This document shows, piece after piece, positions 3,632 through 61,276 of a stretch of 64,000 bases of DNA. A program made the position numbers and the translations under genes. The notes beneath the pieces were generated by a model, which was not told the DNA's origin, did not search any database, and saw only the letters and a program-made list of their open reading frames with translations. Position 1 is the first letter of the stretch. The number at the start of each line of letters is the position of its first letter. Source of the stretch: Pelagibacteraceae bacterium AG-426-I15 (GTDB lineage Bacteria; Pseudomonadota; Alphaproteobacteria; Pelagibacterales; Pelagibacteraceae); assembly GCA_003213135.1 (NCBI GenBank), contig QCNT01000002.1:62001-126000 (forward strand), in the 5' to 3' direction.

Positions 3632-4168
3632 TTAAATTTTTAGATGAATTTTACAAAAATTTTTAAATGTTAAATTTTTTTTATCTTTCCTTGAAACCAA
3701 GGGTTTTTTACTTGGCCAATTTATTTTTAAGTTTTCATCATTCCAAATAATACCCACTTCATTTTTTTTGGATCTATAATTAGAATTTGCATAAACAACA
3801 TAATTTTCCTTGTCCATACCCATAAAACCATGTGCAAAACCTTTTGGGATATAAAGAGATTTTGAATTTTTGTCACTTAGAGTAATGGAAAAATATTTTC
3901 CAAAAGTTTTTGATTTTTTTCTTAAATCTAAAACCACATCAAATATCCTGCCTTTAACCACAGAAACATATTTGGCTTGATTAACTTTTTTTTGGATGTG
4001 CAGACCTCTTATCACATTTTTTTTCGATTTAGACATGCACCAAAAAACTCCGTCAAATCTGTCATTTTTATTTTTTAAAAAAAGTTCCCTAAAAGCTCCC
4101 CTTTTATCTAAATGAGTTTTACCCTCAATAATTTTAAGGCCTTTTATTTTAGTTTTTTTAATTTTCAC
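3632..4168 (-). CDS. rfbC: dTDP-4-dehydrorhamnose 3,5-epimerase (RmlC)
   Basis: This 178-aa cupin matches RmlC. It has RGLHIQ with the catalytic His57, a conserved basic residue near K72, VLDLRKKSKTFG with Asp81, and YIPKGFAHGF near 107-115. It epimerises C3 and C5 of dTDP-4-keto-6-deoxyglucose. Its start codon overlaps the rfbB stop by 4 nt, indicating translational coupling, and rfbD follows 5 nt later. Confidence 0.9.
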   Translation of the reverse strand: MKIKKTKIKGLKIIEGKTHLDKRGAFRELFLKNKNDRFDGVFWCMSKSKKNVIRGLHIQKKVNQAKYVSVVKGRIFDVVLDLRKKSKTFGKYFSITLSDKNSKSLYIPKGFAHGFMGMDKENYVVYANSNYRSKKNEVGIIWNDENLKINWPSKKPLVSRKDKKNLTFKNFCKIHLKI

Positions 4169-5196
4169 AGTTTTAAACCTAGCCTTGTTGTAATATTTTT
4201 TTTTGATATTTTTTTGAAATAACCTATATTATTTTTGTACCAATTGAACGTTTTTTCAAGGCCTTCATTAGTCGAAACTTTATGTCGCCATTTTATTTTT
4301 TTTCTTAATTTATTTGAGTTTAATGCATATCTTAGATCATGACCTGGCCGATCTTTTACAAAGATAATTTTAGCTTTTTTACCGAAATTAATTTTATTTT
4401 TTTTAGCTATTTTAAAAATCTTTTTAATAATATCAATATTTCTTAATTTTACACCTGTACCAATATTATAATTTTCACCACATTTGCCTCTTAAAAAAAT
4501 TTTTAATATTGCCTCACAATTATCTTTTACGTAAATCCATTCTCTAGTATTTTTTCCATTTCCATAAACTGGTAAAGGCCTATTATTCAAGATATTAAAA
4601 ATCATTTTTGGTATAAATTTTTCAGGAAACTGATTAGGGCCATAGTTATTGCATGGATTAGCAATTAAGGTTTTTATGCCGTACGTTCTTCCATATGCCA
4701 TTACAAGCTGATCTGCACTTGCCTTAGAAGCTGAATACGGGGAACTTGGATTATAATTATCCTTTTCACTTGCTAATCTATTTCCGACAATGTCACCATA
4801 AACTTCATCCGTTGAAATTTGTAAAAATCTCATTTTATTTTTAGTATTTTTTTTTAACTTTCTTAAAACTTCTAATAAATTATAAACTCCATTAATATTA
4901 CTTTTGATAAATTTTTCAGCGTTATCAATAGACCTATCGACATGTGTTTCAGCAGCTAAATTTATTATACCTAATGGTCTATATTTTTTAATAATTCTAG
5001 AAATTTTCTGTTTTTGATTAATATCTGTCCTGAAAAAAAAATAGTTTTTGTTCCTTTTAAACTTTTTTACATTATATGGATTCGCCGAGTATTCAGATTT
5101 ATCAATATTTATTACCGAGAAGTTCTTTTTCAACAAAAGGTCTATTAAGTTACTCCCTATAAAACCTGATCCTCCAGTAATTATAATTTTTTTCAT
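4165..5196 (-). CDS. rfbB: dTDP-glucose 4,6-dehydratase (RmlB)
   Basis: The 343-residue extended SDR has the nucleotide motif GGSGFIGSN (8-16), the dehydratase signature STDEVYGD containing T129-D130-E131, and Y154xxxK158 within SPYSASKAS. This matches dTDP-glucose 4,6-dehydratase, the second step of dTDP-rhamnose synthesis. It is first in the minus-strand rfbBC-rfbD unit. The first enzyme (rfbA, glucose-1-phosphate thymidylyltransferase) is not in the window and must be encoded elsewhere if the pathway works. Confidence 0.93.
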   Translation of the reverse strand: MKKIIITGGSGFIGSNLIDLLLKKNFSVINIDKSEYSANPYNVKKFKRNKNYFFFRTDINQKQKISRIIKKYRPLGIINLAAETHVDRSIDNAEKFIKSNINGVYNLLEVLRKLKKNTKNKMRFLQISTDEVYGDIVGNRLASEKDNYNPSSPYSASKASADQLVMAYGRTYGIKTLIANPCNNYGPNQFPEKFIPKMIFNILNNRPLPVYGNGKNTREWIYVKDNCEAILKIFLRGKCGENYNIGTGVKLRNIDIIKKIFKIAKKNKINFGKKAKIIFVKDRPGHDLRYALNSNKLRKKIKWRHKVSTNEGLEKTFNWYKNNIGYFKKISKKNITTRLGLKL

Positions 5197-5277
5197 ATTA
5201 ATTTTACAAACAAGGTATGATCCATTAAGTTAAAACTTTTAGAATAATTAGAGTATAAAATCAATTATGTTTAAATA

Positions 5278-6111
5278 ATGTCAACTAAAGATATAACCAT
5301 AGTAATAACTTCATTTAAAAGTGAAAATAAAATAAGAAATTGCCTAAATTCAATTGATAAACAATACAAGGTAATAAATGTCGAGAATTCAAACAATAAA
5401 GACTATAAAGCTAATATCGAGAAAGAATTTAGCAATGTAGAATGCATTTTGTCTGGCAGCAACTTTGGATATGGAAAAGGCAATAATATTGGTTTAAGAA
5501 AAGTAAAAACTAAATACGCATTAATACTTAACCCGGATGCAGAATTATTTCCAGAAACCCTCAATATCTTTCTAAAAATTGCTAATGAAAAATCAGATTT
5601 TGCTATTATAGGGCCGTCAATTGTTGAAAATAAAAATAAATTAACATTAAACAATGAAACAAAAACAGCTAAGGCTGTAAAAGGTTTTGCAATGTTTTTA
5701 AATTTGTCAAAATTTAATAACATTGGATTTTTTGATGAAAACTTTTTCTTTTTTCTTGAGGAAATAGATTTGTGCAATAGAGTGATCGAGCAAAACAAAA
5801 AAATTTATTATTGTCCTAAAATACCAGTTTATCATGAAGGTGGAAGGTCCCACGATGTTTCGTATAATTATCAAATGGAACTTTCAAGAAATTGGCATTG
5901 GATGTGGTCTAGTTTTTATTTTAATAAAAAGTATAGGGGATTTTTAATTTCTTTAATTGACGCTTTTCCAAAACTTTTCTCTTCAATATTTAAGTTTTTA
6001 ATTTTCTCCATAATAAAAAATAAAGATAAAAAAGAAATATATTACCAAAGATTTTCAGGACTAATAAACGCAATCATGGGTAAAAATTCGTGGTATAGAC
6101 CAAAAGTTTGA
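5278..6111 (+). CDS. Glycosyltransferase family 2 (rhamnosyltransferase-like)
   Basis: This 277-aa protein begins with a GT-A fold (DITIVITSFKSENKI). It carries the NPDAELF metal-binding region near residues 84-91 and EEIDLCNR near 160, then YHEGGRSHD. The pattern resembles WbbL-type rhamnosyltransferases that use dTDP-rhamnose, which fits its position divergent from rfbBCD across an 81-nt spacer. A TATAAA at 5254-5259 may be its -10 element. The C-terminus has hydrophobic stretches that may associate with the membrane. Donor identity is inferred. Confidence 0.75.
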   Translation: MSTKDITIVITSFKSENKIRNCLNSIDKQYKVINVENSNNKDYKANIEKEFSNVECILSGSNFGYGKGNNIGLRKVKTKYALILNPDAELFPETLNIFLKIANEKSDFAIIGPSIVENKNKLTLNNETKTAKAVKGFAMFLNLSKFNNIGFFDENFFFFLEEIDLCNRVIEQNKKIYYCPKIPVYHEGGRSHDVSYNYQMELSRNWHWMWSSFYFNKKYRGFLISLIDAFPKLFSSIFKFLIFSIIKNKDKKEIYYQRFSGLINAIMGKNSWYRPKV

Positions 6112-6156
6112 TTATTTATTGATTTGAACAATTTTTAAATATAATGATTATTTTCA

Positions 6157-7167
6157 ATGAAAAAAAGTAAAGTTTTAGTTACAGGCGCTGCAGGGTTTTT
6201 AGGTTCCCACTTAGCAGAAAAATTAGCAGAGAACGGCGATGTCGTAGTCGGAGTTGATAATATGATGGGCGGTTATTCTGATAACGTCCCAAAAAATATT
6301 AAATTTCACAAAGTAGATTGCTGCGATTTAAATAAAATGAAAGAGATTATGAAAGGGATAGAAGTAGTGTATCACTGCGCAGCAACTGCACATGAAGGTC
6401 TTTCAGTTTTTTCACCTTACGAAATTGGAAAAAATAATTATCTAGCATCAGTCTCAGTTTTTTCATCAGCAATTTCAAATAAAGTTAAAAGAATAATTTT
6501 TTGCTCATCTATGGCAAGATATGGATCTCAAAAATATCCATTTACTGAAGATATGTCACCAAATCCTGTTGACCCTTATGCAATTTCAAAAGTTGCGGCA
6601 GAACAAACTTTAATAAATCTTTGTGAATTAAATAATATTGAATGGGTTATTGCAGTGCCACATAATATAATCGGCCCAAAGCAAAAATATGACGATCCCT
6701 TTAGAAACGTAGTTTCTATAATGTTAAACAGGATGTTACAAAATAAAGCTCCGATTATTTACGGAGATGGAATGCAAAAAAGATGTTTTTCATATATAGA
6801 CGACTGTTTGTCATGTTTAATACCAATGAAAGATCAAAAAAATTTAAATAAACAAGTAATAAATATCGGACCAGATGAGGAATTTGTAACGATAAATAAA
6901 GTTGCTGAAATATGTTCTAATATAACTGGTAGTAATCTAAAACCTATTTACAAACCTGATAGACCAAAGGAGGTAAAGCACGCAAGTTGTTCAGCAGATA
7001 AAGCAAGAAAACTATTAAATTATAAAACAACAGTAGACTTAAATACTGGTATAACCAGAACTTTTGAATATATAAAAGCAAGAGGACCCAAACCTTTTGA
7101 CTACTATATAAATGTAGAAATTTTAAACGAACTTACACCCTCAACTTGGATAAAAAAAGAAATTTAA
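6157..7167 (+). CDS. NAD-dependent epimerase/dehydratase of nucleotide sugars
   Basis: The extended SDR (336 aa) shows GAAGFLGSH (10-18), a CSSMARYG segment and Y141xxxK145. It also has a nucleotide-sugar C-terminal region including IYGDGMQKRCFSYIDDC. It is similar to UDP-glucose 4-epimerase/UDP-glucuronate decarboxylase relatives but is not the GalE at 59110. A TATAAT at 6140-6145 lies just upstream of the ATG. The gene follows the GT2 gene by 45 nt. The reaction cannot be fixed; 4-epimerisation of a UDP- or GDP-sugar is a reasonable guess. Confidence 0.7.
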   Translation: MKKSKVLVTGAAGFLGSHLAEKLAENGDVVVGVDNMMGGYSDNVPKNIKFHKVDCCDLNKMKEIMKGIEVVYHCAATAHEGLSVFSPYEIGKNNYLASVSVFSSAISNKVKRIIFCSSMARYGSQKYPFTEDMSPNPVDPYAISKVAAEQTLINLCELNNIEWVIAVPHNIIGPKQKYDDPFRNVVSIMLNRMLQNKAPIIYGDGMQKRCFSYIDDCLSCLIPMKDQKNLNKQVINIGPDEEFVTINKVAEICSNITGSNLKPIYKPDRPKEVKHASCSADKARKLLNYKTTVDLNTGITRTFEYIKARGPKPFDYYINVEILNELTPSTWIKKEI

Positions 7168-7168
7168 T

Positions 7169-7696
7169 TTAGTGTCCAGGAAAATCTATTAGACTTTCTG
7201 TGAAATAAGATTTATTTTTTAGTTTTTGATCTCCACCTAAATCAAATAAATTTATTATAAAAATAAAACCCGCAACTTTTCCACCAGATATTTCTACTAA
7301 TTTAGCGCCTGCCTCAGCTGTTCCTCCTGTGGCGATCAAGTCGTCAATAATTAAAATACTTTCGTTTTTACTAATCGAATCTTTATGAATTTCAATTGTT
7401 GCTTTTCCATACTCAAGCTCAAAATCCACAGAATATTTTTCAGCCGGCAATTTATTTTTTTTTCTCATCATAATAAGAGGTTTTTTCAACTTATAAGAGA
7501 CTGCTGACGCAAAAACAAATCCTCGTGATTCAATTGCGGAAATTTTATCAAATTCAATTTTTTTGGATATTTCCACAATTTTGTCTACACTGAAATTAAA
7601 AGCTTTAGGGTCTTTAATTAATGTGGTTATATCTCTAAATAAAATACCTTTTTTAGGGTAATCAGGAATTGATCTAATGTATTTTTTTAAATCCAT
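7169..7696 (-). CDS. apt: Adenine phosphoribosyltransferase
   Basis: A 175-aa type I phosphoribosyltransferase. It has the conserved APRT start RSIPDYPKKGILFRDIT, ESRGF near residues 56-60, and the PRPP loop IIDDLIATGGT (116-126). It converts adenine plus PRPP to AMP in the cytosol. It is divergent from mtnP across 43 nt. Adenine is a product of MtnP, so the two proteins fit a single salvage route. The 3' end lies 1 nt from the convergent epimerase gene. Confidence 0.95.
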   Translation of the reverse strand: MDLKKYIRSIPDYPKKGILFRDITTLIKDPKAFNFSVDKIVEISKKIEFDKISAIESRGFVFASAVSYKLKKPLIMMRKKNKLPAEKYSVDFELEYGKATIEIHKDSISKNESILIIDDLIATGGTAEAGAKLVEISGGKVAGFIFIINLFDLGGDQKLKNKSYFTESLIDFPGH

Positions 7697-7739
7697 ATTT
7701 TACTTCATTATTTAGCAAAAAAAGATTAAGAATTAAATA

Positions 7740-8639
7740 ATGAAAAATGCTAAATTTGGGATAAATAGAAAAATTGGAATAATTGGGGGTAGCGGCCTTT
7801 ACAAAATAGAGGGTTTTGAAAAAACCAAATGGAAAAAAGTCAAAACATCTTGGGGCGATCCTTCCGACGATATAATGACAGCAAAATTTTATGGGGTGGA
7901 CGTTTATTTTATCCCCAGACATGCTAGAGGACACAAAATTAATCCAACTAATATAAATTATAGAGCAAATATAGATGCAATGAAACAATTAGGAGTTACA
8001 GATATAATCTCTGTTTCTGCAGTCGGCTCTTTAAAAGGAGAATTGAGTCCTGGAACATTTGTTATAGTTGACCAGTTTATTGACAGAACCTTCTCAAGAA
8101 TAAAAACTTTTTTTGACGAAGATATAGTTGCCCATGTATCTATGGCTGAACCCACGAGTAAATGTTTAAGAGATTGCAGTGAAGCAGCATTAAAAAAATT
8201 AAAAATCAATTATCAAATGGGCGGAACATATGTTGTGATGGAAGGACCCCAATTTTCAACTTTTGCGGAGTCAAATTTGTATAGATCATGGAAGGCTGAT
8301 GTGATTGGAATGACAAATATGCCTGAAGCTAAATTAGCGAGAGAAGCCGAAATTAGATATTGTACTGTTGCAATGGTAACAGACTATGATTGTTGGCACT
8401 CAGATCACCAAGAGGTAGATGTTGCAATGGTAATCAAAACTTTAAAAGAAAATGCAATTAATGCTCAAAATATGGTCAAAGAGATTATTAAAACCTTTAA
8501 ATATTTTTCTACTGAAACAGATCCTGCAAATAATTGTTTAGATATTTCAATAATTACAGATCCTAAATTGAGGACAAAAAAAACAAAAGAAAAACTAAAA
8601 TTTATTGCCGGAAGAGTCTTTAAAAAAAATGAAGATTAA
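7740..8639 (+). CDS. mtnP: S-methyl-5'-thioadenosine phosphorylase
   Basis: This 299-residue PNP-family protein has GIIGGSG (13-19), PRHARGHKINP (59-69), EGPQFSTFAES and the VTDYDCW segment near 213-218. The Asp in that segment distinguishes adenosine-type MTA phosphorylases from guanosine/inosine phosphorylases. It phosphorolyses methylthioadenosine (and probably 5'-deoxyadenosine) to adenine and the corresponding ribose-1-phosphate. It is the first gene of a tight four-gene unit with mtnA, a class II aldolase and speDE. The product is the substrate of the next gene. Confidence 0.95.
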   Translation: MKNAKFGINRKIGIIGGSGLYKIEGFEKTKWKKVKTSWGDPSDDIMTAKFYGVDVYFIPRHARGHKINPTNINYRANIDAMKQLGVTDIISVSAVGSLKGELSPGTFVIVDQFIDRTFSRIKTFFDEDIVAHVSMAEPTSKCLRDCSEAALKKLKINYQMGGTYVVMEGPQFSTFAESNLYRSWKADVIGMTNMPEAKLAREAEIRYCTVAMVTDYDCWHSDHQEVDVAMVIKTLKENAINAQNMVKEIIKTFKYFSTETDPANNCLDISIITDPKLRTKKTKEKLKFIAGRVFKKNED

Positions 8640-9699
8640 CGGAAAAGAATTTAGAACAATATGGTTTGAAAATAATATTGTAAAAATAATTGATCAAACA
8701 AAACTTCCGCACCAATTCATCACTAAAGATTTAAAAACAGTTGATGACACAATAGAAGCAATTAAAACAATGCAGGTTAGAGGAGCGCCACTAATAGGGG
8801 CTACAGCAGCATATGGATTAGTACTATCTATAATTGAAAAAAATGATCAATCATTTTTGAAAAAAGCCAGCGAAGATTTAATTAAATCAAGACCCACTGC
8901 TATTAACTTAAAATGGGCAGTAGACAGAATGATGAAAAAATTATCAGGAGTAAATACTAATGAGATTTTGAAATTAGCAATTAATGAGGCAGAGGCTATT
9001 TGTGATGAAGATGTAGATTTTTGTAAAAAAATTGGTTTGAACGGGCTCAAAATAATTGAAGAAATTTATAATGCGAAAAGAGATACAGTAAACATTTTAA
9101 CTCACTGTAATGCTGGTTGGCTTGCCACGATTGATTGGGGAACAGCAACATCACCTATTTATCACGCTCATCAAAAAGGAATTAAAGTTCATGTTTGGGT
9201 AGATGAAACTAGGCCCAGGAACCAAGGAGCTAATTTAACATCATACGAGTTAAACGAAGAAGGTATATCGAATACAATTATTGCCGATAATACAGGAGGT
9301 ATTTTAATGCAAAGAGGTGAGGTAGATATGTGTATTACTGGAACAGACAGAACTCTTTCAACTGGAGATGTCGCAAATAAAATCGGAACATACCTTAAAG
9401 CTTTAGCGGCCTATGACAACAAAGTCCCTTTCTATGTAGCTTTGCCTAGTTCAACAATTGATTGGAATTTAAAAAAATTTAAAGATATTCCTATAGAGGA
9501 AAGAAATTCAGAAGAATTATCACATATAGAAGGTTTAGATAAAAATAACAAAATAACAAAAGTTTTAATTTATCCAAAAAAAAGCAAAGCTTTGAATTTG
9601 GCATTTGATATAACACCAGCCAAATATGTAACGGGACTTATAACTGAAAAAGGCATCTGCGAAGCTTCAGAAGAAGGTTTGAAAAAACTATTTAGATGA
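8629..9699 (+). CDS. mtnA: S-methyl-5-thioribose-1-phosphate isomerase
   Basis: Starting at the ATG at 8629, the protein has 356 residues. In that numbering the catalytic Cys160 (THCNAG) and Asp240 (TGTD) fall exactly where Bacillus MtnA has them. RGAP (51-54) and NQGANLTSYEL are also present. It isomerises 5-methylthioribose-1-phosphate to 5-methylthioribulose-1-phosphate. An in-frame TTG at 8605 lies further inside mtnP, so the ATG with an 11-nt overlap is preferred. The close relative eIF2B lacks the catalytic pair, so the assignment is firm. Confidence 0.95.
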   Translation: MKINGKEFRTIWFENNIVKIIDQTKLPHQFITKDLKTVDDTIEAIKTMQVRGAPLIGATAAYGLVLSIIEKNDQSFLKKASEDLIKSRPTAINLKWAVDRMMKKLSGVNTNEILKLAINEAEAICDEDVDFCKKIGLNGLKIIEEIYNAKRDTVNILTHCNAGWLATIDWGTATSPIYHAHQKGIKVHVWVDETRPRNQGANLTSYELNEEGISNTIIADNTGGILMQRGEVDMCITGTDRTLSTGDVANKIGTYLKALAAYDNKVPFYVALPSSTIDWNLKKFKDIPIEERNSEELSHIEGLDKNNKITKVLIYPKKSKALNLAFDITPAKYVTGLITEKGICEASEEGLKKLFR

Positions 9700-10340
9700 A
9701 AAAATTAAGAACACAAATTATAAAATACGCAAAAAAATTAAATATAACTAATTTATCCACTTTAAGATCGGGTAACGTTTCTGTGAGAGTCAAAGAAAAA
9801 AACACAAATGGTTTCTACATTACTCCCTCTGGAGTCAAATATTCTTCCTTAAAACCTAAAGATATTATTTTCGTCTCTCTCAAGGGGGTATTTGATAAAA
9901 AAAAAGGCAAACCGTCTTCTGAGTGGCGATTCCACCAAGATATTTATGTTAATAAAAAAGACGCGAAAGCTATAGTTCATGCACATTCTACGTGTGCTAC
10001 AGCTGTATCTACTCATCAAAAAGCTATTCCAGCTTTTCACTATATGATCGGAGTTGCAGGTGGAGAGGACATAAAATGCGCCAAATACGCCACTTTTGGT
10101 ACAAGAAAATTATCCAAAAATATTTTATTAGCCCTTAAAAATAGATCCGCTTGTTTGATATCAAACCACGGTCAAATAGCATTTGGAAAAAATTTAGAAA
10201 ACACTTTTGAACTTGCGCAGGAGGTTGAAAATATTTGCCATCAGTACATAAATGCAATAAGAATAGGAATACCTAAGATTCTTTCAAAAAAAGAAATGAA
10301 AATTGTCTTAGGAAAAATGAAAAATTATAAAAAAGGATAG
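9696..10340 (+). CDS. Class II aldolase, probable 5-(methylthio)ribulose-1-phosphate aldolase
   Basis: This 214-aa class II aldolase/adducin domain has Glu76 (SSEWRFH), His95 and His97 (HAHS) and His158 (SNHGQ). All four align with E. coli fuculose-phosphate aldolase E73, H92, H94 and H155 with a constant offset of 3. It follows mtnA with a 4-nt overlap. The expected reaction is cleavage of methylthioribulose-1-phosphate (or 5-deoxyribulose-1-phosphate) to DHAP and an aldehyde. The related dehydratase MtnB is the alternative, but the aldolase-type catalytic Glu and the absence of mtnW/X/C/D argue against it. Confidence 0.75.
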   Translation: MKKLRTQIIKYAKKLNITNLSTLRSGNVSVRVKEKNTNGFYITPSGVKYSSLKPKDIIFVSLKGVFDKKKGKPSSEWRFHQDIYVNKKDAKAIVHAHSTCATAVSTHQKAIPAFHYMIGVAGGEDIKCAKYATFGTRKLSKNILLALKNRSACLISNHGQIAFGKNLENTFELAQEVENICHQYINAIRIGIPKILSKKEMKIVLGKMKNYKKG

Positions 10341-10346
10341 TTTTTT

Positions 10347-11387
10347 ATGAAAAAAGTTGGCGAACACGTTACAATAGACTTTCTAGGCGTAAAAAAGGAG
10401 TATCCCCCTAATTTTTACAACAAAGTAATACATAAGATTGCAAAAAGAGCCAAAATAGAAGTTCTCAATATTTCGGAAAAAATATTTAAACCGCAGGGAT
10501 ATACTTGCTTAGCTCTTCTAGCCGAAAGTCATATGAGTTTTCATACTTTTCCAGAAAGAGGCATAATTAGTTTTGATTTCTTTACTTGTGGAAAAATCTC
10601 CCCAACATCAGCTTTAGAAGTTTTAAAAAATGAAATTAAACATCAAAGAGCAGTAGTTAGAAGTTTTGATAGAAGCAATAAAGGGATGTACGAGGATATA
10701 TACAGTACACCAGGACACAAAAAATATTACGTGGTAGACGATGTGCTGGAAAATTTTGTATCAAAAGTTGGTCAACATATCGAAATAGTAAAATTAGAAG
10801 AATTTGGAAACTCACTTTTTATAGATAGCGAATTACAGGTAGCAGAAAAGGATGAAAAAAAATATAGCAGTCAGTTTGTAAACTCTGCACTTAATTTATC
10901 CAAAGAAAATTCCAGTGCAGCAATAATTGGTGGCGGTGATGGTGGAGTGGCGAGAGAACTTTCATCGAAAGGATTTGATTTGATCGATTGGTATGAATTA
11001 GATCCCGAAGTAGTAAAAGTTTGTCAAAAGCATTTACCTAAAGTTTTTGGAGATCTAAAAGCAAATAATAAAGTAAAAACTTACTGGGGAGATGCTTTCG
11101 AAAGCATCAAGAAAGTTAAAGACTCAAGATATGATAAAATTTTTGTTGACTTAAATGATGATGATTTCTGTATAAATTTGGCAGCAAAAAATATGAAAAG
11201 TTTAAAAAGAATTCTTAAACCCGGAGGAGTTATAACTGCCCAAGTTGGTTGTTTATCGAAAAAACCAAAACAAGTTAAAAGTTGGGTGGAATTACTTCAA
11301 AGCAACTTTGGAAATGCTGAGTTGTCAGAAGTATTTATCCCTAGTTTTGATTGCAGATGGAATTTTGCCTCTTCATCTCACAAATAG
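10347..11387 (+). CDS. speDE: Fused S-adenosylmethionine decarboxylase - spermidine synthase (SpeD-SpeE)
   Basis: One 346-residue frame holds two enzymes. Residues 1 to about 120 are a class 1B AdoMet decarboxylase: the self-cleavage site Glu60-Ser61 precedes His66 and Cys81, matching Ser63, His68 and Cys83 of the Thermotoga enzyme. Residues about 125-346 are an aminopropyltransferase with the N-terminal beta region, GGGDGG (195-200), ELDPEVV (217-223), GDA (248-250) and an Asp-rich DLNDDD (268-273). Together they decarboxylate AdoMet and transfer the aminopropyl group to putrescine, releasing MTA. It lies 6 nt after the aldolase gene. Self-processing would release the SpeD beta chain. Confidence 0.9.
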   Translation: MKKVGEHVTIDFLGVKKEYPPNFYNKVIHKIAKRAKIEVLNISEKIFKPQGYTCLALLAESHMSFHTFPERGIISFDFFTCGKISPTSALEVLKNEIKHQRAVVRSFDRSNKGMYEDIYSTPGHKKYYVVDDVLENFVSKVGQHIEIVKLEEFGNSLFIDSELQVAEKDEKKYSSQFVNSALNLSKENSSAAIIGGGDGGVARELSSKGFDLIDWYELDPEVVKVCQKHLPKVFGDLKANNKVKTYWGDAFESIKKVKDSRYDKIFVDLNDDDFCINLAAKNMKSLKRILKPGGVITAQVGCLSKKPKQVKSWVELLQSNFGNAELSEVFIPSFDCRWNFASSSHK

Positions 11388-11454: not shown

Positions 11455-12282
11455 ATGAAGGGAATTAAAAAATTAATTCTATCAATATTTGCATCTTTGT
11501 TTTTGATTTCGTCAAACACTTATGCAGATAATATTAAAATTGCCACTGAAGGAGCTTATCCTCCGTGGAACTCAAAGACATCTGATGGAAAGTTAATTGG
11601 TTTTGAAGTGGATCTTGCTAATATATTATGTGGTTACATGAAAAAACACACTTGTACCATTGTTGAACAAGATTGGGATGGAATGATCCCAGCTTTAAAA
11701 GCAAAAAAATATGATGCTATAATGGCAGGAATGTCTATTACCGATGAGAGGAAAAAAGTTATAACTTTTTCTCAAGGTTATGCAGATGAGGTAGCATCTT
11801 TCGCCGTTATGTCAGGATCAAACTTAGAAGGAATAAAAACTCCTGTAGCTATAAATCTTTCAAAAGGAAGCAATAGCGCAACCCTTAATACTTTAAAAAA
11901 AGCTTTGGCCGGAAAAACTGTTGGAGTTCAAACTGCAACAATTCACCAAAATTTTTTAGAGTCAGGTAAGGTTGGAAAAGTTAACGTTAGAACTTACAAA
12001 ACCCAGGATGAGGTTAATCTAGATTTAGCCGCAGGAAGAATAGATGCGGCTTTAGCTGCTGCTGTGGCTTTCACAGACTATTCTAAAAAATCTGGAAAGA
12101 ATGTAGTTTTAGTTGGACCAACCTTTGCAGGCGGTGAGTTTGGTAATGGAGTAGGTGTCGGTATAAGACAAGAAGACACTGGACTCGTTAAAGATTTTAA
12201 CAAAGCTATAAATAAAGCAAGAAGATCTGGAAAACTAAGTGAACTTGCTACCATTTGGTTTGGCTTTGATGCATCTATGTAA
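11455..12282 (+). CDS. Periplasmic basic-amino-acid/opine-type ABC substrate-binding protein
   Basis: A 275-aa secreted protein with a signal peptide of about 24 residues (positive start, hydrophobic core, NTYA end). The mature part is a type II binding fold: IKIATEGAYPPWN, GFEVDLANILC, WDGMIPALKAKKYDAIM and GMSITDERKK. It resembles the lysine/arginine/ornithine and octopine/nopaline binding proteins, with the LDLAAGRIDA and GGEFG segments of the latter. Basic amino acid uptake would feed polyamine synthesis made by the upstream genes. The ligand is inferred from family resemblance only. Confidence 0.85.
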   Translation: MKGIKKLILSIFASLFLISSNTYADNIKIATEGAYPPWNSKTSDGKLIGFEVDLANILCGYMKKHTCTIVEQDWDGMIPALKAKKYDAIMAGMSITDERKKVITFSQGYADEVASFAVMSGSNLEGIKTPVAINLSKGSNSATLNTLKKALAGKTVGVQTATIHQNFLESGKVGKVNVRTYKTQDEVNLDLAAGRIDAALAAAVAFTDYSKKSGKNVVLVGPTFAGGEFGNGVGVGIRQEDTGLVKDFNKAINKARRSGKLSELATIWFGFDASM

Positions 12283-12295
12283 TAAATAATTATTT

Positions 12296-12319
12296 AGGCG
12301 GTTGGTAAATCAACCGCCT
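12296..12319 (+). terminator. GC-rich hairpin between binding-protein and permease genes
   Basis: A 9-bp perfect stem (AGGCGGTTG / CAACCGCCT) with a 6-nt loop starts 14 nt after the stop of the binding protein gene. It is the most GC-rich inverted repeat found between genes in the window. The following TTATAAAA is only a weak U tract, so it is either a partial terminator or a 3' stabiliser that keeps binding-protein mRNA in excess over permease mRNA. Confidence 0.7.
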
Positions 12320-12325
12320 TATAAA

Positions 12326-13018
12326 ATGGAACTTCTAAAATTTGGAGATAGCGGTTGGGGAGACGAACTCTTTTTTGCAACTTTAATGACATTAGCAGTT
12401 GCTATAACCGCAATGTTAATCGGTTTTTTATTTGCTCTTATCTTTACACCATTAAAAATTTCAAAGAATAAAACTTTAAACTTCATATCAAATTTTTACA
12501 CAACAGTTATGAGGGGAGTTCCTGAATTGTTAGTTATTTATCTTTTTTTCTTCGGAGGAACAGCTGCCGTAATGTATGTCGCAAAGATTTTTGGATATGA
12601 CGGCTATATTGAAATAAATGCTTTCGTTACAGGAGCTTTTTCAATTGGTATAATTTCCGGAGCATATTCTACAGAAGTTTTTAGAGGTGCTTACTTATCG
12701 ATTAAACGTGGTCAGTTTGAAGCCAGTAAAGTTTTAGGTTTAAAAACCAATGTATCTTTTTTTAAAGTAATCTTTCCACAAATGTTAAGATTAGCAATAC
12801 CCAACATAACAAATGTTTGGCAAATTACTCTGAAGGATACCGCTTTAATTTCCGTAACAGGATTAGTTGAGATAATGAGACAATCTTACATTGCAGCAGG
12901 TTCTACAAGAGATCCTTTGCTATTTTATTCAGTTGCTGCTGTTTTGTATTTATTTTTAACTTTTTTTAGTATGAAGATTTTAAACAAATTAGAAGTTTAT
13001 TATCGGAGGGGGTATTAG
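12326..13018 (+). CDS. Amino acid ABC transporter permease (HisQ/OccQ type)
   Basis: Using the ATG at 12326, the inner-membrane protein has 230 residues with about five hydrophobic segments and the ATPase-docking EAA loop (EASKVLGL...FPQMLRLAIPN, about 135-165). An in-frame GTG-type start at 12302 would place the first codons inside the hairpin stem and is unlikely. It pairs with the permease that starts on the last base of its stop codon. No ATPase gene follows. Confidence 0.85.
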   Translation: MELLKFGDSGWGDELFFATLMTLAVAITAMLIGFLFALIFTPLKISKNKTLNFISNFYTTVMRGVPELLVIYLFFFGGTAAVMYVAKIFGYDGYIEINAFVTGAFSIGIISGAYSTEVFRGAYLSIKRGQFEASKVLGLKTNVSFFKVIFPQMLRLAIPNITNVWQITLKDTALISVTGLVEIMRQSYIAAGSTRDPLLFYSVAAVLYLFLTFFSMKILNKLEVYYRRGY

Positions 13019-13695
13019 TGGACTTTGACTTAATGACTTCTAGTTTTCCAAAGTTACTAAGCGCAACCTTGGTCACACTTAAATTAGTTTCGGCTTCACT
13101 TTTATTTGGAATTTTTTTAGGAACTTTATTTGCAATTTTAAGAACGGGGAAAAATAAGTTTCTAAAAGCTTTTTCTTATTACTACTCATATATTTTTAGA
13201 GGAACACCAATGCTAGTTCAACTTTTTATAATTTACTTTGGACTCGCACAAATTGAATATTTAAGATCTAGTTTTCTCTGGGTTGTTTTAAAAGAACCTT
13301 ACTGGTGCGCTATAATTGCTTTTGCCCTAAATACTGGAGCTTATACCTCTGAGATTTTTAGATCAGCTTTTGAAACAATAGACAAAGGTATTATCGAGGC
13401 CGGTAAGAGCTTAGGCATACCAAATAGTAAAATTTTTTATAAAATTAAACTTCCTATTGTATTAAGACAGTCTTTACCGGCTTACGGAAATGAGATGATA
13501 CTTATGTTGAAGGGTACTTCGTTAGCTAGTACGGTAACATTGATGGACTTAACAGGTGTAGCAAAATTTATTATATCTACAACCTACAAACCTGTAGAAA
13601 TCTTTATTGTAGCAGGCAGCATATATTTATTAATCACCTTCGTTATACATAATATTATTAAGTTTTTAGAAAAAAAGTATAGTTTTAATAACTAA
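13018..13695 (+). CDS. Amino acid ABC transporter permease (HisM/OccM type)
   Basis: This 225-aa inner-membrane permease begins with a GTG that overlaps the previous stop by one base. It has about five transmembrane segments and an EAA loop (EAGKSLGI...LPIVLRQSLPA). It forms the heterodimeric channel with the preceding permease. The 3' end overlaps the convergent DUF6165 gene by 11 nt. The cognate ATPase must be encoded elsewhere. Confidence 0.85.
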   Translation: MDFDLMTSSFPKLLSATLVTLKLVSASLLFGIFLGTLFAILRTGKNKFLKAFSYYYSYIFRGTPMLVQLFIIYFGLAQIEYLRSSFLWVVLKEPYWCAIIAFALNTGAYTSEIFRSAFETIDKGIIEAGKSLGIPNSKIFYKIKLPIVLRQSLPAYGNEMILMLKGTSLASTVTLMDLTGVAKFIISTTYKPVEIFIVAGSIYLLITFVIHNIIKFLEKKYSFNN

Positions 13696-48134: not shown

Positions 48135-48559
48135 TGTTGTATTTTGCATTTGGAAGCAATCTTCATCATAAACAAATGAAGAGAAGATGTAAGAACTCAA
48201 AATATATTGGCTGTTACAGCCTAAAGGGATACAAACTTGTTTTTAGGAACTATTATTTTGGAGGCGGGGTAGCGGATATTCAAAAGAAAAAAAATAGCTT
48301 TGTTCTTGGAGCTATTTATAAAATTTCAAAAAGTGACGAGAAAAAATTAGATGAATATGAAAATTATCCAACAACCTATATTAAGAAATATTTTAAACTT
48401 TTTGGAAAAAAAGTTATGTTTTACTATATGCCAAAAAAAACTAAGTTAGTTTCACCAAGCAAACGTTATATAAATATTATTATTCAGGGTTACAAAGACT
48501 GTGGATACCGAAACACATTCATAGTTATTTCAAAAGGAAAAAAAATTAGAATAAAATGA
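48134..48559 (+). CDS. Gamma-glutamylcyclotransferase-like protein
   Basis: The 141-aa protein has the GGCT/AIG2 fold with LYFAFGSNLHHKQM at the start, GVADIQKKKN and KLDEYENYP containing the catalytic-type Glu. It can cyclise gamma-glutamyl groups. The GTG start overlaps the preceding stop by one base and has AAGGAG at 48122-48127. It is translationally linked on both sides. Confidence 0.75.
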   Translation: MLYFAFGSNLHHKQMKRRCKNSKYIGCYSLKGYKLVFRNYYFGGGVADIQKKKNSFVLGAIYKISKSDEKKLDEYENYPTTYIKKYFKLFGKKVMFYYMPKKTKLVSPSKRYINIIIQGYKDCGYRNTFIVISKGKKIRIK

Positions 48560-49452
48560 AAATTTTTGATTGCTTCATGTTCTATGATGAAGAAATGATA
48601 TTGGATTTTCGTTTAAATTATTTGAGCGATTATGTAGAAAAATTTATAATAGTTGAAAGTTGTTTTACACATAGCGGAAAAAAAAGAGACTTAGTATTTG
48701 ATTTTAAAAAATACGGCAAATTTAAAGATAAAATTTCATATATTATTTTAGATGAGGAACCAAAAGATTTATTCAAATTAGACAATAGTGACAATTTTGA
48801 CAAAAAAAATTCTAAGTATATTTTAAACGCATTAAAAAGAGAAAATTTCCAAAGAAACTATATTACCAAGGGCCTTAAGTATGCCGAACCAGAAGATTTA
48901 ATAATTATTTCTGACGTGGATGAAATACCCAATTTAGAGGATAATAATTTAAAAAATTTCAAAGAAAAAATAATACTATTTAATCAAAAGTTTTTTTATT
49001 ACAAATTTAATTTAAAGTTAAATTCTTTTAATTGGTATGGTAGTAAGGCTTGCAAAAAATCTAACTTGATATCTCCACAATGGTTAAGAAATATTAAAAG
49101 TAAAAAATATCCATTTTGGAGAATAGATACTCTATTTTCAAAAACTAAATATAAAAATATATCTTTAATAAAAAATGGTGGTTGGCATTTTTCAAACATG
49201 AAAAGTGCTGAAGCAATTGATAAAAAAATGTCTACATATTTACATCATAGAGAATATGACCTCAAACCTCTTGGTACAAAAAAAATTGAAGAGATTATGA
49301 AAAATAGAAAGGCGATATATAATTTAAGAGCAGATATGAAATCTGATAAATTTGACAATACCCAAAAATTAATTATTGCTGAAATGAGCGAATTACCAGT
49401 TTATATTCAAAAAAATTTAGAGAAATACAAAGATTGGATAGAGATAAAATAA
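48556..49452 (+). CDS. Glycosyltransferase family 17 protein
   Basis: This 298-aa protein starts KIFDCFMFYDEEMILDFRLNYLSDYVEKFIIVES and has ENFQRNYITKGLK and DLIIISDVDEIPN with the DVD metal-binding site (about 117-123). GGWHFSNM follows near residue 210. It matches the GT17 (N-acetylglucosaminyltransferase III-like) family found in bacterial surface loci. Its start overlaps the preceding stop by 4 nt. Confidence 0.75.
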   Translation: MKIFDCFMFYDEEMILDFRLNYLSDYVEKFIIVESCFTHSGKKRDLVFDFKKYGKFKDKISYIILDEEPKDLFKLDNSDNFDKKNSKYILNALKRENFQRNYITKGLKYAEPEDLIIISDVDEIPNLEDNNLKNFKEKIILFNQKFFYYKFNLKLNSFNWYGSKACKKSNLISPQWLRNIKSKKYPFWRIDTLFSKTKYKNISLIKNGGWHFSNMKSAEAIDKKMSTYLHHREYDLKPLGTKKIEEIMKNRKAIYNLRADMKSDKFDNTQKLIIAEMSELPVYIQKNLEKYKDWIEIK

Positions 49453-49454
49453 CA

Positions 49455-50369
49455 ATGAAATCAAATGCAATAGTTACTCTTGCTGACTCAAATTATTTTG
49501 AATTGTTAATAGAATTAATAAATTCTATCAACAAACATGACAAGACCAATAGTGTCTCTATCTGTGTTTTAGATGCGGGTTTAACAGAAAAACAAAGTGA
49601 AATTATAAAAACCAAAGTTTACTCTATTAAGAAAGCAAAATGGGATATTGAAGTTTCAAAATTTAAAATTGCAGGCAAAGAGTGGTTAAAAAGCCAAGTA
49701 TCAAGAGCATTTCTTCCAGACTATTTCCCAGAATTTAAAAAATATCTATGGATAGATTGTGATGCTTGGATAAATTCATGGGAAAGCGTTGAACTATATT
49801 TTAAAGCCTGTGAAAATGGAAAACTTGGCATTACTCAATCTGTTGGTTCTGGTTATAGGGTCTTATCAAAAGTTAAATGGGTATTTGGTAAGATAGCTTT
49901 AATTAAATCACAAAATTATAAACATGCAAAAAAATCGGGATTTTCAGAAAAGACTGCGAGAAAAATTGCTTTTTCACCACATATTAATATTGGAGTTTTT
50001 TCACTCGAAAAAGACTCTTCGTGTTGGAAAATTTGGCAAGAAATTTTAAAGAAAGCTTTAAAATCTGGACAAATTTTTGGTTCAGAGGGTCTTGCAATCA
50101 ATATTGCAGTATACGATAAAAATATTGATGTAGAATTTTTACCTGTTAATTGCAATTGGATAGCTAGCAATGTTTTGCCTAAGTATGATATTAAAAATGA
50201 AACTTTTGTTGAACCTTATTTACCACATAATAAAATTGGAATAATGCACCTGGCGGCGGGCTTATGGTCAGGAAAAAAAGATATGAGACTAGATAAAAAC
50301 GTAAAAATTAAAATTAAAACAACAAACGGAAAAGAGATAGACAAAAGCTTAAGATTTGGAATAAACTGA
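49455..50369 (+). CDS. GT8-like glycosyltransferase
   Basis: From the ATG at 49455, 304 residues. The N-terminal fold SNAIVTLADSNYFELLIELINSINKHD and the SRAFLPDYFPEFKKYLWIDCDAWINSWES segment, with DCDA in the DxD position, resemble GT8-type enzymes. Later HINIGVFSLEK and IMHLAAGLW are consistent with this fold. An alternative start 21 nt upstream overlaps the GT17 gene. The donor is unknown. Confidence 0.6.
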   Translation: MKSNAIVTLADSNYFELLIELINSINKHDKTNSVSICVLDAGLTEKQSEIIKTKVYSIKKAKWDIEVSKFKIAGKEWLKSQVSRAFLPDYFPEFKKYLWIDCDAWINSWESVELYFKACENGKLGITQSVGSGYRVLSKVKWVFGKIALIKSQNYKHAKKSGFSEKTARKIAFSPHINIGVFSLEKDSSCWKIWQEILKKALKSGQIFGSEGLAINIAVYDKNIDVEFLPVNCNWIASNVLPKYDIKNETFVEPYLPHNKIGIMHLAAGLWSGKKDMRLDKNVKIKIKTTNGKEIDKSLRFGIN

Positions 50370-50391
50370 TATTTAAGAACATTTGACAGGA

Positions 50392-50476
50392 GCCCTCGTG
50401 GTGAAATGGTAGACACAAAGGACTTAAAATCCTTGCCCGTAAGGGAGTGCCAGTTCGAGTCTGGCCGAGGGCACCA
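50392..50476 (+). tRNA. tRNA-Leu (TAA anticodon)
   Basis: The 85-nt gene has a 7-bp acceptor stem (GCCCTCG / CGAGGGC), an anticodon loop CTTAAAA reading UUA, a long class II variable arm, GTTCGAGTC T loop and encoded CCA. Only 11 nt separate it from nadK. Confidence 0.95.
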
Positions 50477-50487
50477 ACATTTAATTT

Positions 50488-51258
50488 ATGAAAAATTTTC
50501 ATTTTGTTTTTGATAATACCAGTAAATCAAAAAAACTAAAAAAACATATTTCAAAAAGATATAAAAACTTTTCAGTGAAAAAATCTAATGTCATAATTGT
50601 ATGTGGCGGGGATGGATTTATGCTAAAAACAATGAAAAAATATTTTAGATATAACAAACCTTTTTATGGAATCAATTGTGGTTTGATAGGTTTTCTTATG
50701 AATAAATATACTTTTAAAAATTTAAATCAAATTGTGGAAAAATCAAAAATTAATTTAATTAATCCGTTAGAAGTTAAAACCACCACAACAAATAACAAAA
50801 AAAAATCTTTTTTTGCGATAAACGATCTATCTCTTTTTAGACAAAGTAAACAAACAGCTTTTTTAAAATTAAAAGTAAATAATCAAATTTTAATGAAAAA
50901 ACTTATTGGAGACGGAGTGATCGTATCAACACCTGCGGGAAGCACAGCTTATAATTTATCAATAAACGGTCCAATTTTATCTCTAAATTCAAAAAAAATT
51001 GCAATCACGCCAATAAGCCCATTTAGACCTAGAAGATGGAAAGGAAAAACAGTATCAGAAAAGTCAAAAATTTATATTGGCAATATTGATCCTATAAAAA
51101 GGCCCGTTGCAGCTGTTGCTGACAATAACGAAATAAGAAATGTATCAAAAATAAAAGTTTTTATTAACAAAAGAATTAAATTTAAACTATTATTTAACTT
51201 AAAAGAAAGTTTAATAAAAAAAATTAAATCTGAACAAAAAAGAAAATTAAATAATTAA
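50488..51258 (+). CDS. nadK: NAD kinase
   Basis: A 256-aa NAD kinase with the GGDG motif (IIVCGGDGFMLKTM, about residues 33-46), FYGINCGLIGFLMN, and GDGVIVSTPAGSTAYNLSINGPIL. It phosphorylates NAD to NADP. Lacking a Shine-Dalgarno, it begins 11 nt after tRNA-Leu, so it may be translated from a tRNA-processed or leader-short mRNA. Confidence 0.94.
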   Translation: MKNFHFVFDNTSKSKKLKKHISKRYKNFSVKKSNVIIVCGGDGFMLKTMKKYFRYNKPFYGINCGLIGFLMNKYTFKNLNQIVEKSKINLINPLEVKTTTTNNKKKSFFAINDLSLFRQSKQTAFLKLKVNNQILMKKLIGDGVIVSTPAGSTAYNLSINGPILSLNSKKIAITPISPFRPRRWKGKTVSEKSKIYIGNIDPIKRPVAAVADNNEIRNVSKIKVFINKRIKFKLLFNLKESLIKKIKSEQKRKLNN

Positions 51259-51259
51259 A

Positions 51260-52387
51260 ATGAAAAAATATATTGTGCCAGTTAATGAACCAGAACTTTT
51301 AGGAAATGAAAAAAAATATATTTTACGTTGTATAAATACAGGCTTCATTTCATCTGCTGGACCATTTGTTGAAAAATTTGAAAAAAAATTTGCAAAAACT
51401 GTTAGCAGAAAATTTGCTATTTCGGTTGTGAATGGTACTGCGGCATTACAATTGGCTTTTGAAAGTTTAAATCTAAAAAAAGGTGATGAGGTAATTCTTC
51501 CTTCCTTTACAATAATTTCCTGTGTTCTCCCAGTTGTGAGAAGTGGTTTAAAACCAGTTTTAGTAGACAGCGATCCAATAACTTGGAATATGGATTTAGA
51601 TCAAGTTGAAAAAAAAATTACATCCAAAACTAAAGCCATTATCGCACCACATATTTACGGCTTACCCATAGATATGAATAGACTTTTAAAAATTGCAAAA
51701 AAAAATAAATTAAAAATTATAGAAGATGCTGCAGAAGTTTTAGGTTTAAAATATAAAAATAAAATGTGCGGAAGTTTTGGCGATGTTTCCACATTCAGTT
51801 TTTATGCAAACAAACATATAACCACTGGTGAAGGGGGAATGATTGTTACAAATGATAAAAAAATTGCTGAAAAATGTAAAAGTTTAAGAAACATATGCTT
51901 TAACAATAAAAGAAGATTTCTTCACTATGAATTAGGATGGAATTATAGATTTACAAACCTTCAATCTGCAGTTGGATTGGCTCAATTAGAAAAACTTAAC
52001 AAATTTGTAAATAAAAAAAGGTTAATAGGAAATATATATAACAAACATTTATCAAAAATAAATCATTTTCAAACCCCGCTTAAGAAAACAAAATATGCAA
52101 AAAATATATATTGGGTTTACGGAATTGTTCTAAAAAAGAAATCAATTATTAACGCTGAAAGTTTAATGAAAAAACTTAAAAGTTTTGGCATAGAAACAAG
52201 AAATTTTTTCTGGCCACTTCATAAACAGCCAATTTTAAATAAAATGGGTTTATTTAAGAAAGTAAAGCTGCCTGTTTCTGAAAATTTAGCAAAAAACGGC
52301 ATATATCTTCCAACAGGGATTGCCTTAACTTTATCTCAACAAAAATTTGTTATAAACAAAATCAAAAAAATCTTTTTAAAAAAATGA
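51260..52387 (+). CDS. DegT/DnrJ/EryC1/StrS-family sugar aminotransferase
   Basis: The 375-aa PLP enzyme has GTAALQLAFESL, EDAAEVLGLKY and FYANKHITTGEGGM, with the Schiff-base Lys185. This family aminates nucleotide-bound keto sugars. It lies 1 nt after nadK and is overlapped by the next gene. With the adjoining methyltransferase and cupin it may build a modified amino sugar, but the sugar dehydratase that supplies its substrate is not adjacent. Confidence 0.88.
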   Translation: MKKYIVPVNEPELLGNEKKYILRCINTGFISSAGPFVEKFEKKFAKTVSRKFAISVVNGTAALQLAFESLNLKKGDEVILPSFTIISCVLPVVRSGLKPVLVDSDPITWNMDLDQVEKKITSKTKAIIAPHIYGLPIDMNRLLKIAKKNKLKIIEDAAEVLGLKYKNKMCGSFGDVSTFSFYANKHITTGEGGMIVTNDKKIAEKCKSLRNICFNNKRRFLHYELGWNYRFTNLQSAVGLAQLEKLNKFVNKKRLIGNIYNKHLSKINHFQTPLKKTKYAKNIYWVYGIVLKKKSIINAESLMKKLKSFGIETRNFFWPLHKQPILNKMGLFKKVKLPVSENLAKNGIYLPTGIALTLSQQKFVINKIKKIFLKK

Positions 52388-53622
52388 TATTAAAAAAATG
52401 TAGATTATGTAAAAGCAAAAGGATGTTTAAATTTTTAGATTTAGGATTTCATCCCCCATCCGATCAATTTAAAAATAAATTACATTTAGACACCCCTACA
52501 ACCTATTATCCGCTAAAAGTTTTTAGTTGTAAAAGTTGTGGTTTTAAACAGTTAAATTATGTGGTTGAGCCAGAGGTTCTTTACCAAGACAATTATCCTT
52601 ACGAGTCATCAATAACAAAAGCCGGAAAAAAACATTGGTACGAATTTGCCGAGACAGTTTTTAACGATTACAAACTTAAAAAAAAAGATTTAGCCGTAGA
52701 TATAGGAAGTAATACCGGAGTATTACTAAGCGGTTTTAAAAAAAAAAAGTGTAGGGTTATTGGTATAGATCCTGCCAACAATATATGCAAGATTGCAAGA
52801 AAAAGAGGCATTCCAACCATCAATAGTTTTTTTAATTCAAAAGCAGTCAATACAGTTTTGAGAAAATCTGGTAAAGCTAAAGTAATTACCGGAACAAATG
52901 TGTTTGCTCATATTAATGATTTAGATTCTTTTATGAGAAATATCAAAAAACTACTGGATAATGACGAAGGTATATTCGTAATTGAAGCACCTCATTTTTT
53001 GCATCTCGTAAAAAGTTTGGAGTACGATACTATTTATCACGAACATCTCTCATATATAACTGTATTACCATTAATCAAATTTTTTAAGAAATTTAATTTT
53101 GAAATCATTAATATTTTGCAAAAAGATATACACGGAGGTTCAATCAGAATTTTTATTTCAAAAGCAGGAAACTTTAAAGTTGATAAAAATGTCAAAAAAA
53201 TTTGTAATTTAGAAAAGAAGGAAAAATTAAATTCAAAGAAAATTTTGACCAAGTTTGAAAAAAGAGTTATCGAAAATAGGTTAAATTTAGTTTCGTTACT
53301 TACAAAACTAAAAAAATCTAACAAAAAAATTATAGCTTTGAGTGCTCCAGCTAAAGGAATGACACTTCTAAATTATTCTAAATTAGATTGTGATTATTTG
53401 GAATATGCAACTGAAAAGTCCTCAATTAAGCAAGGCCTTTATACTCCAGGTGTGAACTTACCAGTTTTTAGTGATGATAAAATTTTAAAAACAAAACCTG
53501 ATTATGCATTGTTACTAGCCTGGAATTTTTCAAAAGAGATAATTAAAAATAATAATAAATATTTACAAAAAGGTGGAAAATTTATAATACCAATTCCAAA
53601 AGTTAAAATAGTTAAAAAATAA
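52384..53622 (+). CDS. SAM-dependent sugar C-methyltransferase family protein
   Basis: The 412-aa protein has three parts: a zinc-binding N-terminus (CRLCKSKRM, CKSCGF), a SAM fold (VDIGSNTGVLLSG, about 100-112; TIYHEHLSY near 216-224) and a C-terminal domain with LSAPAKGMTLLNY. This is the C-methyltransferase family (TylC3/NovU-like), the same as the gene at 1-757. It overlaps the aminotransferase by 4 nt, suggesting the two modify the same sugar. Confidence 0.82.
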   Translation: MILKKCRLCKSKRMFKFLDLGFHPPSDQFKNKLHLDTPTTYYPLKVFSCKSCGFKQLNYVVEPEVLYQDNYPYESSITKAGKKHWYEFAETVFNDYKLKKKDLAVDIGSNTGVLLSGFKKKKCRVIGIDPANNICKIARKRGIPTINSFFNSKAVNTVLRKSGKAKVITGTNVFAHINDLDSFMRNIKKLLDNDEGIFVIEAPHFLHLVKSLEYDTIYHEHLSYITVLPLIKFFKKFNFEIINILQKDIHGGSIRIFISKAGNFKVDKNVKKICNLEKKEKLNSKKILTKFEKRVIENRLNLVSLLTKLKKSNKKIIALSAPAKGMTLLNYSKLDCDYLEYATEKSSIKQGLYTPGVNLPVFSDDKILKTKPDYALLLAWNFSKEIIKNNNKYLQKGGKFIIPIPKVKIVKK

Positions 53623-53623
53623 A

Positions 53624-55864: not shown

Positions 55865-55922
55865 TATTATTATATTAATTAATATTAATTTATACTAAAC
55901 TAAAATTATTAAAAAAACCATT

Positions 55923-59104: not shown

Positions 59105-59109
59105 AATAA

Positions 59110-60090: not shown

Positions 60091-60093
60091 ATC

Positions 60094-61233: not shown

Positions 61234-61276
61234 TTTTATAAATTATTTTTATACATATTATGATATTAAAATATAG

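Follow-up and report, generated by a model that had tools for sequence, protein, structure and literature searches.

The stretch of DNA analyzed here, called the window in what follows, is 64,000 nucleotides long and comes from a SAR11-like genome (976,624 bases in 19 contigs, 88% complete). It carries an open frame of 346 residues, translated without any inner stop, in which an S-adenosylmethionine (AdoMet) decarboxylase half (SpeD) is followed by an aminopropyltransferase half (SpeE). A preliminary description of this DNA had read the single frame as a SpeD-SpeE fusion, and both the translation and the Pfam domains bear this out. The fusion gene (speDE), its domains, and the genes on either side of it are given in Table 1.

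Table 1. Genes, domains, and predicted sites at the speDE locus (positions in the window).
Feature	Position	Strand	Evidence
apt, adenine phosphoribosyltransferase, divergent from mtnP	7169..7696	-	TIGR01090, 202.7 bits (cut-off 185.85)
mtnP, methylthioadenosine phosphorylase	7740..8639	+	TIGR01694, 316.8 bits (cut-off 274.85)
mtnA, methylthioribose-1-phosphate isomerase	8629..9699	+	TIGR00512, 413.9 bits (cut-off 279)
Class II aldolase, fuculose-phosphate aldolase type, predicted Ald2-like (methylthioribulose-1-phosphate aldolase)	9696..10340	+	Substrate predicted
speD-speE fusion gene (speDE)	10347..11387	+	Open frame, 346 aa; Pfam, NCBIfam, alignment
Class 1b AdoMet decarboxylase domain, residues 7-109	10365..10673	+	PF02675, TIGR03330
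Predicted self-cleavage codons Glu60-Ser61 (pyruvoyl-forming)	10524..10529	+	Alignment; cleavage predicted from family
Aminopropyltransferase N-terminal domain, residues 119-167	10701..10847	+	Spermine_synt_N PF17284, 23.0 bits (cut-off 22.1)
Aminopropyltransferase catalytic domain, residues 170-340	10854..11366	+	Spermine_synth PF01564, E 1.7e-24; solved relatives
Polar amino acid ABC transporter, Lys/Arg/Orn-type binding protein and two permeases	11455..13695	+	Pfam, NCBIfam

Upstream of speDE, mtnP and mtnA overlap by 11 bases and mtnA and the aldolase gene by 4, with a gap of 6 bases between the latter and speDE (the mtnA frame was listed from a TTG at 8605 and has an in-frame ATG at 8629). 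We infer that mtnP, mtnA, the aldolase gene, and speDE are co-transcribed. Control by a riboswitch was set aside, as the Rfam search of the whole window at gathering thresholds returned two tRNAs only. On the downstream side, 74 of the best 80 of 582 speDE loci extend for 2.5 kb, and in 21 of these a transporter binding protein is found no more than 300 bases from speDE. By eye, an ATPase gene was not seen among the ORFs adjoining the transporter of the window.

The SpeD half matches the Pfam AdoMet_dc family (PF02675) with an E-value of 4.6e-23 (82.1 bits, cut-off 25) and also passes the Bacillus-type AdoMet decarboxylase model TIGR03330 (88.0 bits, cut-off 75.65). Its nearest solved structure is the AdoMet decarboxylase 1tlu (E 8.9e-12), and Ser61 aligns with a residue that is Ala in the chain of 1tmi; we take both entries to be the Thermotoga maritima enzyme. 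The SpeE half belongs with the aminopropyltransferases, with Spermine_synth and Spermine_synt_N above their cut-offs, the GGGDGG motif at residues 195-200, and acidic positions further on (Glu217, Asp249, Asp268, and Asp271), which presumably serve in binding decarboxylated AdoMet and the amine. The nearest solved structure to this half is the spermidine synthase 1iy9 (E 3e-18), whose Tyr-His-Glu is replaced by Tyr173-Ser-Ser in SpeDE. The spermidine synthase equivalogs are not reached (TIGR00417, 100.5 vs. 249.55 bits; NF002010, 121.3 vs. 260), and being so far under the TIGR00417 cut-off the exact product is not readable from the family name. With both domains in one open frame and SpeD first, the protein has the make-up of the bacterial AdoMet decarboxylase-aminopropyltransferase fusions.

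Glu60-Ser61, His66, and Cys81, which we take to be the SpeD cleavage point and the active-site His and Cys, had been described as preserved together with GGGDGG, and all were found in place. For comparison, speDE loci were fetched from named genomes, being the best 80 of 582 and therefore leaning to near relatives, and 30 of their proteins were aligned with that of the window. All 31 rows share Glu60, Ser61, His66, Cys81, Asp198 and Gly200 of the GGGDGG motif, Glu217, Asp249, Asp268, and Asp271, which argues that speDE is a gene under constraint and no chance frame.

The SpeD-SpeE fusion of SAR11 is already known, and known to work, because the copies of Ca. Pelagibacter ubique HTCC1062 and Ca. 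Pelagibacter sp. HTCC7211 have been expressed with both activities (PMC11107197), and it is also discussed in PMC8437039. As in the window copy, these SAR11 proteins have the SpeD half, termed class 1b, before the SpeE half; their activities are shown in print, whereas the window copy is known by sequence and represents a further, unexpressed member of a SAR11 group with two tested members. Both were reported to make spermidine in Escherichia coli lacking speD, to make spermine/thermospermine in E. coli lacking speE, and to turn diaminopropane into norspermidine (PMC11107197). By analogy, the product range of the window SpeDE is likely wider than spermidine alone, and to count any other product against the reading, as the preliminary description did, is too strict given what the tested Pelagibacter fusions make. 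The same paper ascribes a pattern of Asp-Gly-Gly and Glu to bacterial spermine synthases, spermidine synthases not being separable by these motifs; Asp198-Gly-Gly200 and Glu217 of SpeDE fit this pattern.

We are thus confident, on the basis of domains, residues, and gene neighbors, that speDE encodes a bifunctional AdoMet decarboxylase-aminopropyltransferase leading to spermidine and probably to spermine/thermospermine, the methylthioadenosine (MTA) being cleared by the products of the upstream genes. The SpeD half would decarboxylate AdoMet, and the SpeE half, joined to the pyruvoyl-bearing alpha chain, would transfer the aminopropyl group to putrescine to give spermidine and probably go on to spermine/thermospermine, with release of MTA. 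An improbable alternative is that SpeE works mainly in reverse in the cell, breaking down spermidine or norspermidine from seawater, as was proposed for HTCC7211 from metabolite changes upon feeding with either compound; the results for HTCC1062 were less clear, however, according to the same source (PMC8437039). Moreover, the fusion to an AdoMet decarboxylase agrees with the forward direction of SpeE, and the linked MTA-disposal genes support forward aminopropyl transfer in the cell.

There is little room for a switch of the SpeD half to arginine or ornithine, by which the fusion would make agmatine or putrescine and no decarboxylated AdoMet. Changes of this kind in SpeD have been described from bacteria, archaea, and phages (PMC10407285), but a neofunctionalized arginine or ornithine decarboxylase was set aside here since speDE is the single PF02675 match in the source genome (88% complete) and is fused to a transferase that requires decarboxylated AdoMet, so that the switch would deprive SpeE of its substrate. 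Besides, AdoMet decarboxylase works in both tested Pelagibacter fusions (PMC11107197), and the genome has other decarboxylases, of the PF02784 family, one of them adjoining AguA/AguB-like genes.

It is this second family that bears on the supply of putrescine. The preliminary description remarked that no putrescine source is adjacent to speDE, which holds for the neighborhood; in the genome search that it proposed, likely genes did turn up, although on another contig. The source genome has two PF02784 decarboxylases, one of which, at ~137.7 kb of contig C1, stands in a row with deoxyhypusine-synthase-like, AguB-like, and AguA-like genes. The first of these three passes the model of 1,9-bis(guanidino)-5-aza-nonane synthase (NF002699, 578.7 vs. 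a cut-off of 500), while the AguB-like and AguA-like genes are under the NCBIfam equivalog cut-offs, AguA being above that of Pfam. The decarboxylase of the row is under all NCBIfam cut-offs (best, diaminopimelate decarboxylase, 137.6 vs. 297.9), and its predicted substrate comes from its neighbors and from a Pelagibacter enzyme, the ornithine decarboxylase homologue of Ca. Pelagibacter ubique, reported to have arginine decarboxylase activity (PMC10407285). At the corresponding site of another genome (G090), AguB-AguA are replaced by an agmatinase (200.1 bits vs. a cut-off of 174.3), and the last putrescine step seems to be swapped between close relatives. Among 10 genomes searched, AguA-type genes were found in six and arginase/agmatinase-family genes in five (both in one, neither in none), and with one or the other in all 10, a route from arginine through agmatine to putrescine is likely in these genomes, judging from gene content. 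Putrescine would then probably derive from arginine via the decarboxylase and the AguA/AguB-like enzymes of the other contig, or from uptake. A search for PotA gave 16 ABC ATPase matches in the genome, the best of them under the TIGR01187 cut-off (293.4 vs. 355.6 bits). The putrescine rows can be seen at 6355-10501 of locus L118 (G000, C1 128000-145000) and at 5983-9095 of locus L119.

As for the processing of the protein, the SpeD half would cut itself between Glu60 and Ser61, the latter becoming the pyruvoyl group. A cut before Ser61 would give a 60-residue beta chain and a 286-residue alpha chain, with masses from sequence of 6.9 and 32.3 kDa. SpeE is C-terminal to Ser61 and so remains on the alpha chain, which would be expected to carry the pyruvoyl group as well, with the two halves still joined and residues 1-60 alone released; the cut-off beta piece is presumably held within the fold. 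In SpeD-SpeD fusions the cleaved chains are visible on gels (PMC10407285). An AlphaFold model of SpeDE, built with 31 sequences, is only fair (mean pLDDT 77.4, pTM 0.59), too coarse to speak for or against the channeling of decarboxylated AdoMet that the preliminary description thought possible. Foldseek ranks human spermine synthase (3c6k) first among the matches of this model, with the whole protein aligned. VIA-align of model residues 5-346 with this enzyme gave a Z of 18.6 and an rmsd of 8.8, the Z being tied with those of spermidine synthases whose match is confined to the SpeE half; the SpeD half was barely tested by VIA-align, with no AdoMet decarboxylase entry among the 50 rows. These matches amount to a common domain order and a loose overall fit, which falls short of proving the same arrangement.

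The order of an N-terminal AdoMet decarboxylase fold and a C-terminal aminopropyltransferase is also that of delta-proteobacterial and Krumholzibacterial AdoMet decarboxylase-spermine synthase fusions and of animal spermine synthase, which derives from a bacterial fusion and lost the decarboxylase activity (PMC12803844), whereas SpeDE retains the residues. That the SpeD half is kept mainly for dimer formation, as with the inactive decarboxylase fold of human spermine synthase, might be argued from this ancestry and from the Foldseek match, but it is most unlikely with the cleavage serine, His66, and Cys81 intact and invariant, and with AdoMet decarboxylase activity present in the tested Pelagibacter fusions (PMC11107197).

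SpeDE is widespread in the order, with matches in 217 of 297 sampled genomes (123 of the 150 that are at least 90% complete) and none in the remaining 80. Most matching genomes have one match each and, among the matches listed, these span residues 1-3 to 343-346 and are mostly 63-69% identical to the window protein, the near-relative group aside; for L062, whose genome bears the title Ca. Pelagibacter ubique, the identity is 66%. Eight of the 217 matches are weaker than ~1e-100 (G118, G132, G145, G171, G265, and G267, plus G080 and G293 at ~1e-4); some of these could be truncated copies or different genes. In the set of the best 80 of 582 loci, 79 are from Pelagibacteraceae or Pelagibacter and one is from an unclassified alphaproteobacterial single cell (L024). 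In the class sample, 121 of 289 genomes gave matches. Among those listed from outside SAR11, the two halves mostly match at two separate places, often same-strand neighbors (e.g., G358, C45 4861-5184 and 5189-5791; G495, C143 2902-3222 and 3315-3899), and long single matches such as that of G418 are few. Green et al. reportedly concluded in 2011 that SpeD-SpeE fusions arose by the merger of adjacent genes, a view with which the neighboring separate matches outside SAR11 agree.

The fusion itself is therefore not new, and the less expected part is its gene setting. A class II aldolase in one of two forms adjoins speDE in all of the best 80 of 582 loci. In 55 of these 80 it is a stand-alone gene 5' of speDE, with 8-16 bases between them including the stop codon, and in 25 it is a 677-residue aldolase/short-chain dehydrogenase, also 5' of speDE and on the opposite strand, at 84-123 bases (family assigned by NF006192 on the L004 copy). 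Both mtnP and mtnA are present in 60, and apt in 59, of the 61 loci in the same set with a full 6 kb upstream; at L043 all three are absent from these 6 kb. Several loci have extra ORFs between mtnP, mtnA, and the aldolase gene. Across the 297 genomes of the order, at an E-value of 1e-40, the stand-alone aldolase was found in 165, the aldolase-dehydrogenase in 42, and the two together in none. At the same threshold, 164 of the 217 speDE genomes have the former, 38 the latter, and 15 neither, an exclusion with a Fisher p of 1.7e-30 that ignores relatedness. Among the genomes of the order with no speDE match, one has the stand-alone aldolase and four the aldolase-dehydrogenase.

The 15 genomes with neither form include G080 and G293, the two with speDE matches of only ~1e-4. 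Five of the 15 were read at the site (L129-L133), and in all of them apt is divergent from a PNP_UDP_1 gene of 174-176 residues lying directly 5' of speDE; mtnP, mtnA, and the aldolase were not seen in these stretches of 6.5-10 kb, so that a dihydroxyacetone phosphate (DHAP) shunt is not visible at the site. Three of the five PNP_UDP_1 genes were compared with NCBIfam, where the best model was NF004168 ("nucleosidase") and the next ones MTA/SAH nucleosidases, all under cut-off. The solved structure nearest to the one gene so compared is an MTA/SAH nucleosidase (E 1e-10).

A tree was computed from 81 SpeDE proteins by a short search, with SH-aLRT as the sole branch support. The window copy groups in it with L002 and L009, both of which have the stand-alone aldolase; these three fall within a starred set of 12, of which the remaining nine are of the aldolase-dehydrogenase type, and the tree requires at least two changes of aldolase type. 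Compared with the window, the mtnA and aldolase of G164 (L135) are 90-91% identical and its speDE only 64%, while L003 has a speDE 91% identical and lacks that stand-alone aldolase. These contrasts point to the border between aldolase and speDE as a site of gene exchange, likely a recombination border judging from these identities.

What the upstream genes would do follows from the fate of MTA, one of which is released per aminopropyl transfer, so the linked MTA genes matter more than the fusion. MtnP and Apt would return the adenine of MTA, MtnA would isomerize the MTA-derived sugar, and the aldolase would probably split the isomerized sugar into DHAP and methylthioacetaldehyde. In Rhodopseudomonas palustris, MtnP, MtnA, and Ald2 convert MTA to DHAP and methylthioacetaldehyde, which is then reduced to methylthioethanol, methanethiol being a possible end product (PMC5893883). 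This DHAP-ethylene/DHAP-methanethiol shunt, reported from Rhodospirillum rubrum and R. palustris, shares with the SAR11 row its MtnP and MtnA, which in the window are above the TIGR01694 and TIGR00512 cut-offs, and its class II aldolase. The SAR11 row differs in being linked to speDE and apt and in having an aldolase of predicted substrate, and other SAR11 genomes differ in having in its place an aldolase fused with a short-chain dehydrogenase, whose activity would fit the reduction of methylthioacetaldehyde.

The solved structure nearest to the window aldolase is L-fuculose-1-phosphate aldolase (1dzx, E 1.8e-48). The aldolase is under all three MtnB models compared (best 69.2 vs. 137.05 bits, NCBIfam), the set of families compared having no Ald2 model. 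Universal methionine salvage (MtnB-MtnD) was provisionally set aside as less likely, the neighboring aldolase being under the MtnB cut-offs and the acireductone dioxygenase family PF03079 giving no match in the source genome (88% complete). The MTA-isoprenoid shunt was rejected, with no RuBisCO-family gene in any of the 10 genomes searched.

The gene content suggests a DHAP-type MTA salvage shunt in SAR11. We lean slightly toward the broader view that speDE of SAR11 is held beside MTA-disposal genes exchanged among three alternatives (mtnP-mtnA with the stand-alone aldolase, mtnP-mtnA with the aldolase-dehydrogenase, or a short nucleosidase-like gene replacing all three), and that the two aldolase forms run the DHAP shunt. 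From the gene order, SAR11 would handle MTA from the site of its making and by several interchangeable ways. SAR11 cells rely on external reduced sulfur. If the shunt is real, polyamine synthesis in a very abundant ocean group releases a methylthio-aldehyde or alcohol, perhaps methanethiol, and a sulfur volatile or alcohol is a measurable prediction. No publication on the linkage of speDE with MTA genes, or on such a shunt in SAR11, was found in the one open-access library searched, most items being judged from title and start of abstract.

Some further genes were observed in passing. At L045 an ORF of 148 residues (3840-4286) between mtnP and mtnA is weakly like 4-oxalocrotonate tautomerases, under cut-off, and a gap of similar size separates mtnP and mtnA in many of the loci ~66% identical in speDE (best 80 of 582). 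At L029 an ORF of 376 residues (4220-5350), with what appears by eye to be a signal peptide and no NCBIfam match, lies between mtnA and the aldolase gene. Elsewhere in the window, positions 48556-63437 are rich in ORFs whose translations, judged by eye, are of sugar-nucleotide, membrane, and glycosyltransferase-like kinds; this stretch probably carries genes for a surface polysaccharide.
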